The notes under the pieces are model-generated. The model searched no databases, was not told the origin of the DNA, and saw nothing but the letters and a program-made list of their open reading frames with translations. The position numbers and the translations under genes were made by a program. A stretch of DNA of 64,000 bases from assembly GCA_002238825.1 (NCBI GenBank), contig MPNC01000002.1, positions 363,180 to 427,179 on the forward strand, written 5' to 3'. Source of the stretch: SAR202 cluster bacterium bin87 (GTDB lineage: Bacteria > Chloroflexota > Dehalococcoidia > Lucifugimonadales > UBA3495). Positions 21,773 through 25,458 of the stretch are shown here, piece after piece (the stretch's first letter is position 1; every line of letters begins with the position of its first letter).

Positions 21773-22654
21773 ATGGCATTTACGCATCCCGAGTACCTCG
21801 TATCCACCGATTGGCTGGCCGAGCACCTGGCCGACGACGATGTCCGCATCTTCGAGACCACCATCTTCCTGCATAGCGTCGCAGGCGGCGGCCGACGCGC
21901 CGAGTCGGGCCGGAGCGCCTACGACACCGGCCACATTCCCGGCTCAGGCTTCCTCGACCTGCAGGCCGACTTCTCCGACAACGACCAGTCATACCGCTTC
22001 ATGATGCCCTCCGCCGCAGCCTTCGCGGAGGCCGCCGGTCGCCACGGAATCTCGGACACCTCGAAACTGGTCCTGTACGACCGGCTCGGCTCGCAGTGGG
22101 CGGCCCGCTTCTGGTGGATGTTCCGCTCGATGGGTTGCCACAACGCGGTAGTGCTGGACGGCGGCCTGCGCCGCTGGACCGCCGAGGGTCGCGCCGTCTC
22201 CACGGATCCGGCGACCTACGCGCCCGCGTCCTTCAGCCCGACGGCAGACCCCGCGCGCTTTGCCGACCTGGCCGAGGTCAGGGAGTTCATCGAGTCCGGC
22301 ACTGGCGGCGGCAGTTGCCTGATCAACGCCCTGGGACGCGATCAGCATTCCGGCGCCGACGGCGGCAGTGGCTACGGGCGGGCCGGCCACATCCCCGGCG
22401 CGACCAACGTCCCGTCGGGCGATCTGACCGACCCCGAAACCGGCCTGTTCCGGCCGGCCGATGAACTGGCGTCCCTTTTCGAGGCGGCCGGCGCTGACCG
22501 CACACAGCGCGTGGTCACCTATTGCGGCGGCGGCATCGCGGCGTCCAACGACGCTTTCATCCTGGCCATGTTGGGCTACGAGAATGTCGCCGTGTACGAC
22601 GCCTCCATGTCGGAATACGCCGCCGATCCGTCATTGCCGCTGGTCGCCGACTGA
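21773..22654 (+). CDS. Sulfurtransferase (two-domain rhodanese, thiosulfate/3-mercaptopyruvate type)
   Basis: 293 aa with two rhodanese domains. The first holds FETTIFLHS, AYDTGHIPGSGFLDL and LVLYDRLGSQWAARFWWM and lacks the Cys. The second holds GYGRAGHIPGATNVPSGDL and the active-site loop VTYCGGGIAAS with C251. Such enzymes move sulfane sulfur from thiosulfate or 3-mercaptopyruvate to cyanide, thiols or proteins. The loop CGGGIAA differs from the CGSGVTA of mercaptopyruvate enzymes and CRKGVTA of thiosulfate enzymes, so donor preference is open. CAGGAG precedes the start. It heads a plus-strand unit with LLM and LUD genes. Confidence 0.9.
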   Translation: MAFTHPEYLVSTDWLAEHLADDDVRIFETTIFLHSVAGGGRRAESGRSAYDTGHIPGSGFLDLQADFSDNDQSYRFMMPSAAAFAEAAGRHGISDTSKLVLYDRLGSQWAARFWWMFRSMGCHNAVVLDGGLRRWTAEGRAVSTDPATYAPASFSPTADPARFADLAEVREFIESGTGGGSCLINALGRDQHSGADGGSGYGRAGHIPGATNVPSGDLTDPETGLFRPADELASLFEAAGADRTQRVVTYCGGGIAASNDAFILAMLGYENVAVYDASMSEYAADPSLPLVAD

Positions 22655-22655
22655 G

Positions 22656-22693
22656 ACAACCGCATCATCGCCGAGGCAACCGCATCATCGCCA
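22656..22693 (+). repeat. Short tandem duplication before the LLM gene
   Basis: CAACCGCATCATCGCC occurs twice, 22 bases apart, in the gap between the rhodanese and LLM genes. It looks like a small local duplication that moves the LLM ribosome site (GGAGGTGCGCC) further from the upstream stop. Confidence 0.6.
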
Positions 22694-22705
22694 TGGAGGT
22701 GCGCC

Positions 22706-23764
22706 ATGACCCAGGTCGCCACGCTGAACGATACCCTGGAGTTCGGGCTGTTCGACTGGATTGAGTGGGATAAGTCAGCGCCCAGCGAGATCTTCGAAAA
22801 CCGGCTGCGGATGCTGGAGTACGCTGACCGCAGCGGGTTCTACAGCTACCACCTGGCGGAGCACCACATCACCCCGCTGAGCGTGTCGCCCTCGCCGGCG
22901 GTGTTCCTGGCGGCGGCGGCACAACGCACGTCACGGTTGCGCCTGGGCCCGCTGGTGTTCCTGCTCCCTTTCTACAACCCCATCCGGCTCTACCACGAGA
23001 TCTGCATGCTGGACAACCTCAGCAACGGGCGCCTCGATCTGGGCGTCGGCCGCGGTGTCTCGCCCGTGGAGGCTGAGGAGTTCGGCGTCGATCTCGGCAT
23101 CAGCTGGGAAATGTTCAACGAGCAGATGGACATGTTCACCGGCGGCTTCACCACCGGCGTGCTCAACTACCAGGGCAAGCACTACAACTACGAGGACATC
23201 GAACTCTGGATTGCGCCCCACCAGAAGCCCTATCCGCCGCTCTGGTACGCCAGCAACAACCTCGAAACCGTGCCGTGGATGGCCCAGCACGGCTTCAACA
23301 CCTGCACCGTTTTCGCCGACAACGCCGGCGTCAAAGCCCATTACGACCTGTACAAGCGGGTGTGGAACGCCGAGCGGATGTCCGACGGGCTCAACAGCCA
23401 CGTCACCGCTCCCAAGCTGGGTCTGGTGCGCCACATGTACATCGCCGACACCGACGCGCGGGCCCGGGAGGAAGCCAAAGCGGCGTACGGGACGTGGTTC
23501 CACAACATCGACTACCTGTGGGCCAAGAACGGGCTCGACCGCCTGGGCGCCATGCGGGACTTCGATGCTCTGGAAGCCAGGGACGTGATCATCGTCGGCA
23601 CGCCGTCCACGGTGCGGGAGCGCGTCCAGCAGGCCATCGGCGAAACGGGCATCAACTACTTCTGCCCCATCTTCGCGTGGGGTGACCTGACCCCCGAACA
23701 GGTGATGCGCTCCATGACGCTATTCGTCGACGAAGTGATGCCCAACCTGCAGCCCGGCGTCTAG
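22706..23764 (+). CDS. LLM class flavin-dependent oxidoreductase (bacterial luciferase-like monooxygenase)
   Basis: 352 aa; GGAGG 7 bases before the ATG. Family segments FGLFDWIEWD, GFYSYHLAEHHITPLS, LRLGPLVFLLPFYNPIRL and NGRLDLGVGRGVSP define an FMN-type LLM monooxygenase of the luciferase alpha-chain group. Members use reduced FMN or F420 and O2 to oxidise alkanes, sulfonates, aldehydes or ketones. It lies between the rhodanese and LUD genes on one strand; a link to organosulfur oxidation is possible but unproven. One of four LLM paralogues. Confidence 0.9.
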   Translation: MTQVATLNDTLEFGLFDWIEWDKSAPSEIFENRLRMLEYADRSGFYSYHLAEHHITPLSVSPSPAVFLAAAAQRTSRLRLGPLVFLLPFYNPIRLYHEICMLDNLSNGRLDLGVGRGVSPVEAEEFGVDLGISWEMFNEQMDMFTGGFTTGVLNYQGKHYNYEDIELWIAPHQKPYPPLWYASNNLETVPWMAQHGFNTCTVFADNAGVKAHYDLYKRVWNAERMSDGLNSHVTAPKLGLVRHMYIADTDARAREEAKAAYGTWFHNIDYLWAKNGLDRLGAMRDFDALEARDVIIVGTPSTVRERVQQAIGETGINYFCPIFAWGDLTPEQVMRSMTLFVDEVMPNLQPGV

Positions 23765-23803
23765 CAACCCGCAAACATCGCAGCCCACTCAGGAGAACCG
23801 ATC

Positions 23804-24421
23804 ATGTCCTCGGCAACACCCCATGCTCCAGCAACCGCCGAATCCATCAGCCGGACCATCGGCGCCCTGGCGGCCCGCAACGTCGAGGCCGTGCTGGTGG
23901 ATTCTCGCGGGGCGGCGCTGCTGAAACTCAAGGAACTGGTGCCGGAGGGTTCCGAGGTCTTCGTCAGCACTTCGGAAACGCTGGACACCATCGGCTACAC
24001 CGAGCACATGCACGGCAACGACCGCTATAACAACCTCCATGACCAGATGCTGGGCCATACCGACCCGGTGGCCCAGCGCGAGTTCCGCCGCAAGACCACC
24101 ATCGCCGACTACTTCGTCGGCAGCGTCCAGGCCATAGCGGAGACCGGGGAGATCGTCGTCGCCAGCGGTTCCGGCAGCCAGATCGGCGCCTTCGCTTACG
24201 GGGCGCGGCGTGTGATCCTGGTGGCCGGCACCCAGAAGATCTGCCCGACCCTGGCGGACGCCGAAGCCCGCACTCGCGGCTTCACCCTGGAGCGACACGA
24301 CCGCTGGCTGGAGGGCCGGGGCGCGAGACCCACCCCCATCGGCAAATACCTGGTCATGGAGCACGAGCCCGTGGTCGGCCGCATCTCCATGATCCTTATC
24401 CCTGAGAGCCTGGGTTGGTAG
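23804..24421 (+). CDS. LUD domain protein (LutC/YkgG-like)
   Basis: 205 aa. Features of the LutC/DUF162 fold are SEVFVSTSETLDTIGYTEHM, DYFVGSVQAIAETGEIVVAS, and GSGSQIGAFAYGARRVILVAG followed by TLADAEARTR. LUD proteins are subunits of L-lactate oxidation complexes (LutABC) or stand alone with unknown substrate. No LutA or LutB iron-sulfur partner is present here, so this belongs to the solo group. It ends convergently with the OsmC-like gene, with a strong hairpin between them. Confidence 0.85.
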   Translation: MSSATPHAPATAESISRTIGALAARNVEAVLVDSRGAALLKLKELVPEGSEVFVSTSETLDTIGYTEHMHGNDRYNNLHDQMLGHTDPVAQREFRRKTTIADYFVGSVQAIAETGEIVVASGSGSQIGAFAYGARRVILVAGTQKICPTLADAEARTRGFTLERHDRWLEGRGARPTPIGKYLVMEHEPVVGRISMILIPESLGW

Positions 24422-24511: not shown

Positions 24512-25039
24512 TCAGTCGAAGAAGATCGGCTCTCCGTTCAGCGTCGACCTGTCCTCGAACGGGGTGGGATTGGCAACGGCAGCCCGCACCCAGCACCCGT
24601 TGCGAGCATTGCGCAACACGGCTGCCACCCGTTCCGGCTCATCCGGCGACTCGATCTCGTAGCTCGTTTCCACCTTCGGAGCGCTGGCCTGGATCGTGCC
24701 CGCCAGCACCGATCCCTCCAACCCGAAGTGCACCGCGATGTGGGCCCTGACGCCGGTGATCTCCACGTTCATCATTCGAGAGTACCTCTCGATCTGGGTC
24801 ATCTCTCAAAACGCGATGGACGAGGCGAAGTAATGCAGCGGCGCGGGAGCGGTGTGATTGCCGCCGACATTGGGCCCCTCATCGCAATAGATGGTGAACT
24901 TCACGTCCCGTCCCACAAAGGCCCGCCGCAGCATGTCGCCCATGTCCTCAACGTCCACTTCGGTGACGGTGGCACGACGGTTCTGGCCGGGCGGAAACGG
25001 GTCGTAATTGGGCTCAGGTCTTTCGCTCTGTGATGCCAT
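24512..25039 (-). CDS. OsmC-like protein with in-frame TGA, predicted selenoprotein (Sec78)
   Basis: One reading frame from the ATG at 25039 (GGAGGAG upstream) to 24512 is interrupted only by TGA at 24808-24806. The first part carries GRDVKFTIYCDEGP and the family turn NHTAPAPLHYFASSIAF; the second continues EMTQIERYSRMMNVEITGV and ends with the OsmC tail (GCWVRAAVANPTP). In OsmC/Ohr proteins the residue after this turn (LASLGGC) is the peroxidatic cysteine, precisely where TGA falls. The resolving Cys is present (C149). Read through, the protein is 175 aa with Sec at 78. A hairpin suited to bacterial SECIS follows. OsmC enzymes reduce organic or lipid peroxides. The alternative is a simple nonsense mutation. 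Confidence 0.7.
24776..24792 (-). promoter_or_regulatory. Candidate bacterial SECIS hairpin inside the OsmC-like gene
   Basis: In the sense direction TCGAGAG-GTA-CTCTCGA forms a perfect 7-bp stem with a GUA loop. The stem begins 13 nt and the loop 20 nt after the in-frame TGA, and the loop starts with G. These values fit the known bacterial SECIS pattern (apical loop about 16-37 nt after UGA, G among its first two bases). Confidence 0.6.
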
Positions 25040-25458
25040 GGCTCCTCCAGATCTCGGGGATAGCGCAACCCTATCACGCAGCATCTCTCCGTACAAACGT
25101 CTTCCGCAGGCCACATGCAGCGTGCGAATGCCAAGACTAACCCAGCGTCCAATCACATCCGGAACAGGCATGACGACCGTGCAGGCTCAGGCGGATTACC
25201 TGCGGCGATTGCAGGGCATGGGTCGGATCCCGTTCAAATCGATGTAAGATGTGCACCGTCTCGCTACTGAGAAAAGCGGGAAGCGAGAATGGTCCGCAAC
25301 GGGAAGAGACACGTTCAGGTGATCGATGTATCGACCGTTGCGCCATTCGCTGGAAGTAGCGCGTCTCCGCCCGCGCCGGCCGGAATGCCCGATTGAACCA
25401 ATCCAGAGACGACAGGACGGTTGGCCCACCACACGATACACCGCAAGGAGGAAGAGTT
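25040..25458. other. 419-bp divergent gap without a recognisable gene
   Basis: This separates the leftward OsmC-like gene from the rightward lyase gene and must hold both promoters. Short frames are present on both strands, but none combines a ribosome site with a family motif. No clear -35/-10 pair was found. Confidence 0.4.

Follow-up and report, generated by a model that had tools for sequence, protein, structure and literature searches.

An OsmC-like gene with a predicted selenocysteine codon in a SAR202-type genome, and an OsmC paralogue with UGA at the opposite redox site

OsmC-like selenoproteins have been reported from marine metagenomes, as the earlier note on this DNA had stated: three sequences with a UxxT motif were published from the Sargasso Sea in 2005 (PMC1088965), and five sequences were included in the GOS selenoproteome (PMC2398784). 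Selenoprotein reviews of 2022 and 2026 list a single OsmC form, that with UxxT. The gene described here has in common with these sequences, and with the NCBIfam family NF041052, a PF02566 domain, selenocysteine (Sec) as the first residue of UxxT and a bacterial SECIS. In contrast to the few Sargasso and GOS sequences, it sits in a near-complete SAR202-type genome and belongs to a family seen across a whole order. Among relatives of known structure the best, Jann_2040 from Jannaschia sp. CCS1 (PDB 3CJE), comes from a different phylum and carries Cys instead of Sec at this site (GCVMTQ, i.e. CxxT); its second cysteine, in a GC motif, aligns with C149 of the protein described here. The Ohr/OsmC peroxiredoxins (1N2F, 1NYE and 1VLA) have the same fold and a two-residue redox centre, but they are Cys-based, their active-site motifs differ and identity is 11–18 % in most structural matches.

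We found no report of this gene in the literature on selenoproteins in SAR202 or Chloroflexi. What is new is a secure genomic home for the family in a SAR202-type order of Dehalococcoidia, with the Sec form in nearly all order members; the OsmC-like selenoprotein, at first represented by just a few marine reads, is shown to be widespread in that order.

Reading frame and conservation of the UGA codon

The window (the whole 64,000-nt stretch of DNA that was analysed) contains a minus-strand frame that runs from ATG 25039 through an in-frame TGA at 24808–24806 to a terminal TGA at 24514–24512. The earlier note had described two frames in the same register parted only by a TGA, and the coordinates agree with that description. 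Read through, the frame encodes a 175-aa product with U78 and C149. The features of the locus are as follows.

24512–25039, minus strand: OsmC-like gene for a predicted 175-aa selenoprotein, Sec being encoded by codon 78; terminal stop TGA at 24514–24512
24806–24808, minus strand: UGA codon for predicted Sec78, opening the UxxT motif (U-E-M-T); TGA in 99/102 homologous loci, TGC in 3/102
24776–24792, minus strand: predicted bacterial SECIS hairpin, UCGAGAG/CUCUCGA stem of 7 bp with loop GUA; compensatory changes in 79 distinct sequences and a synonymous-shuffle control
24593–24595, minus strand: codon of Cys149, the putative resolving cysteine; kept in 101/102 loci and aligned with the GC cysteine of 3CJE
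25042–25048, minus strand: ggaggag, resembling a ribosome-binding site and lying shortly 5′ of ATG 25039 (sequence reading)

The protein matched Pfam OsmC (PF02566) at 45 bits (cut-off 27.5) and NF041052, named ‘OsmC-related (seleno)protein’ (OsmC_like_Se), at 159.5 bits (cut-off 95). With UxxT represented by U78-E-M-T81, it is clearly a member of the NF041052/UxxT family. The gene is a new lineage member and not a new family, as had been suggested from the sequence alone.

In the mechanical list of ORFs the gene appears as two fragments, the second starting from ATG 24802 just 3′ of the TGA, and standard gene prediction can be expected to break it in two or cut it short at this codon. Two fragments are also what an ordinary OsmC gene would leave behind if the TGA were a nonsense mutation or a sequencing error, yielding a pseudogene or two separate pieces. 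The distribution of the codon argues strongly against such an origin. A homologue of the window gene was detected in 79 of 197 related genomes, presence/absence counts across the relatives being blurred by the incompleteness of metagenome-assembled genomes (MAGs), and 78 of those 79 have the in-frame TGA at the identical codon. Since 78 genomes, each assembled separately, carry the TGA, a sequencing error at a TGC or TGT codon, which the earlier note had named as a possible refutation, is excluded.

Among 102 homologous loci, some of which are the same gene repeated from two collections, 99 have a TGA that aligns precisely with codon 78 of the window gene, reaching down to approximately 26 % identity. 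The remaining three, all distant homologues (L120, L121 and L122), have TGC (Cys) there, and no residue other than Sec or Cys was found at the site in any of the 102. The same alignment retains C149 in 101 loci, T81 in 93 and either T or S at the +3 position in 96. Values of dN/dS were low both before and after the TGA (downstream, 0.02–0.10 against all seven relatives compared; upstream, 0.04–0.10 against the nearest four relatives), indicating purifying selection on both flanks. With the TGA recurring at one codon across genera and families, and with a conserved SECIS behind it, we regard a pseudogene or error as refuted and give it a negligible probability.

One homologue (L037) has a second in-frame TGA at approximately codon 150, coinciding with or adjoining the conserved GC cysteine; it may be a mutation, an error or another recoded codon.

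The SECIS hairpin and the selenocysteine machinery

The predicted hairpin consists of the stem TCGAGAG/CTCTCGA around the loop GTA, at positions +14 to +20 and +24 to +30 after the UGA, which places the stem 13 nt and the loop 20 nt from the UGA. Its stem of 7 bp, its 3-nt loop with G first and its minimum free energy (MFE) of −9.4 kcal/mol all lie within the limits of the published bacterial SECIS model quoted in PMC13188914 (loop of 3–9 nt, stem of 4–16 bp, G in the first two loop positions, 16–37 nt from the UGA and MFE of at most −7.5 kcal/mol). The hairpin proposed in the earlier note is confirmed at the same spacing, and it covaries among homologues.

Across 79 distinct sequences, compensatory pairs occur at several stem columns (GC/CG, AT/CG/TA and TA/GC/CG); the pair 17–27, for instance, is A-T, C-G, T-A or T-G, and the pair 15–29 is T-A, G-C or C-G. 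The apex GGUA is present in 67 of the 69 sequences that share the register of the window gene, while 10 sequences belonging to one clade have the stem register shifted by 1 nt and a GGUU or GGCU loop, still with 7 bp. When synonymous codons drawn from the same gene were shuffled with the protein unchanged, the mean stem fell from 6.6 to 2.0 bp and the mean MFE rose from −9.1 to −3.8 kcal/mol. Judged from these alignments, conservation of the SECIS goes far beyond what the protein sequence would explain. A few homologues (L094, L109 and L088) have weak stems when scored in the fixed register. No SECIS was found in the three Cys homologues, whose stems at that place amount to 2, 2 and 0 pairs.

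We also ranked the TGA sites of the window by coding potential on both sides. Among the best five, only 24808–24806 has a 7-bp stem; in a scan of the window for more read-through genes with a SECIS, the other top-ranked sites had mostly weak stems or were judged to lie opposite stronger ORFs.

The genome assembly that was examined (4.96 Mb, 67 contigs) encodes selA (contig C16, 544 bits), selB (C49, 353 bits), selD (C42, 373 bits) and tRNA-Sec (selC) with anticodon UCA (C28). The machinery for selenocysteine incorporation is complete in this genome. The selD gene (C42:681408–682328, locus L123) is Sec-containing too, with an in-frame TGA in the motif HCAGU and a stable hairpin downstream.

A full-length protein requires the UGA to be decoded, and this much would hold equally if UGA stood for Trp, Cys or some other residue through a genome-wide change of code or non-specific suppression. 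However, the window gene and many of its relatives themselves terminate in TGA, the genome has a canonical tRNA-Sec(UCA) together with selA, selB and selD, homologues lacking the TGA have Cys at the site and the hairpin occurs in the TGA genes only. On the strength of the terminal stops, the Sec machinery and the TGA-specific hairpin, a code change was rejected, and its probability is very small. The window gene is almost certainly a genuine OsmC/Ohr-fold selenoprotein whose UGA is read as selenocysteine, a conclusion drawn from comparative sequence data. The three findings that the earlier note had said would count against its prediction were a genome devoid of Sec machinery, homologues with neither Cys nor TGA at position 78 and a miscalled Cys codon; none of them was encountered.

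Among the relatives, selA scored above the cut-off in 168/197 genomes, and 71/78 genomes with the OsmC TGA also have selA. The seven with no full selA match are mostly incomplete MAGs, but one (G165) has 90 % completeness and no selA. Since almost all genomes of the order have selA, its co-occurrence with the OsmC gene constitutes weak evidence. SelA and SelB have been reported as enriched in sponge symbionts (PMC5649159).

Fold, proposed mechanism and neighbourhood

An AlphaFold2 model of the window protein (mean pLDDT 90.3) has the OsmC/Ohr fold, with a Foldseek match to 2ONF (E value 2e-10). In the model, residue 78 lies within a long helix (67–89) and residue 149 adjoins another helix (135–148). 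The redox pair typical of OsmC/Ohr proteins is kept in the family (U or C at position 78 in 102/102 loci; C149 in 101/102). The earlier note had placed the TGA at the site of the OsmC peroxidatic Cys and had pointed to C149 as the retained resolving Cys. Both assignments are supported by TGC in the three Cys homologues, Cys in 3CJE and the near-invariance of C149.

Conserved sequence and structure, together with the complete machinery, suggest that SelB and Sec-tRNA(UCA) would bind the hairpin beginning 13 nt after the UGA, so that the UGA is decoded as selenocysteine. Sec78 would then stand in helix 67–89 where the peroxidatic Cys would otherwise be. By homology, its selenolate may attack an organic hydroperoxide or similar oxidant and form a selenenylsulfide with Cys149, which a cellular thiol could re-reduce. 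In this scheme Sec78 would attack and Cys149 would resolve.

The protein may instead be a selenoprotein but no peroxidase, with Sec78 and Cys149 serving another thiol-redox function such as disulfide reduction or the handling of persulfides or electrophiles. The position that, by residue counting, would correspond to the Glu of the Ohr NPE motif is occupied by L68. The best-matching relatives of known structure are OsmC-like proteins that owe their names mostly to the fold, and PMC9312934 assigns the family to COG1765 YhfA. Both the fold and the two-residue redox centre, however, match those of the OsmC/Ohr peroxiredoxins, and we consider a non-peroxidase role a serious possibility that is nonetheless on the improbable side.

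In the window, a LUD-domain gene lies tail to tail with the OsmC gene, with a luciferase-like monooxygenase gene nearby (21773–24421). These neighbours are present in most of the genus and seldom in other genera (L023–L028, L030, L051–L056 and L060). As the neighbourhood is seldom kept beyond the genus, no functional partner can be inferred from it.

A second OsmC paralogue with UGA at the resolving site

A PF02566 search of the same genome also matched C42:664807–665085, a stretch with one TGA, which belongs to a second OsmC gene located outside the window (G000:C42:664702–665163, plus strand; loci L137 and L138). The selD gene described above lies approximately 16 kb from it. Its Pfam OsmC score is 35.7 bits, and against NF041052 it reached 16.7 bits, below the cut-off of 95. 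Like the window gene, the paralogue combines an OsmC domain with a UGA and a predicted SECIS hairpin, but the predicted Sec is at the opposite redox site: Cys occupies the first site (GITACAVN) and TGA the site of the resolving Cys (WKKRUPLYGSVAVATP). Alignment of the two profiles with hhalign, weak overall (probability 13 %, E value 0.002), pairs U78 of the window protein with the paralogue's Cys and C149 with its Sec. A structure model of moderate confidence (pLDDT 75.9) matched OsmC structures at an E value of 5e-5.

The paralogue family comprises 56 loci in 56/197 relatives, each with exactly one TGA, at the resolving site. A hairpin with a GU apex begins 14 nt after the UGA, and the pair flanking the apex covaries among C-G, G-C and A-T (54/55); the mean stem is 6.2 bp, compared with 3.4 bp in synonymous shuffles. 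One relative (L195) has TGC at this site and a broken hairpin, whereas TGA and an intact hairpin sequence are found in L196, which belongs to the same family. Viral contigs were searched for the family, and none was found there.

The paralogue is not in the selenoprotein list of May 2026, and the reviewed lists give one OsmC form, with UxxT. These data suggest that the paralogue is probably an unreported selenoprotein form, and it is a more novel result than the window gene. The lineage very probably has two OsmC selenoproteins with Sec on opposite halves of the redox centre (UxxT...C149 and ITAC...KKRUPLYG), the second being absent from current catalogues. The two genes form a natural pair for asking why selenium is placed at the attacking or at the resolving position of one fold.

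The genome also encodes a third OsmC-family gene (G000:C53:33386–33694, L135) with no TGA; its first site is Cys (GSCMTVGF), and Ser-Pro takes the place of the resolving Cys (EGSPVTQS).
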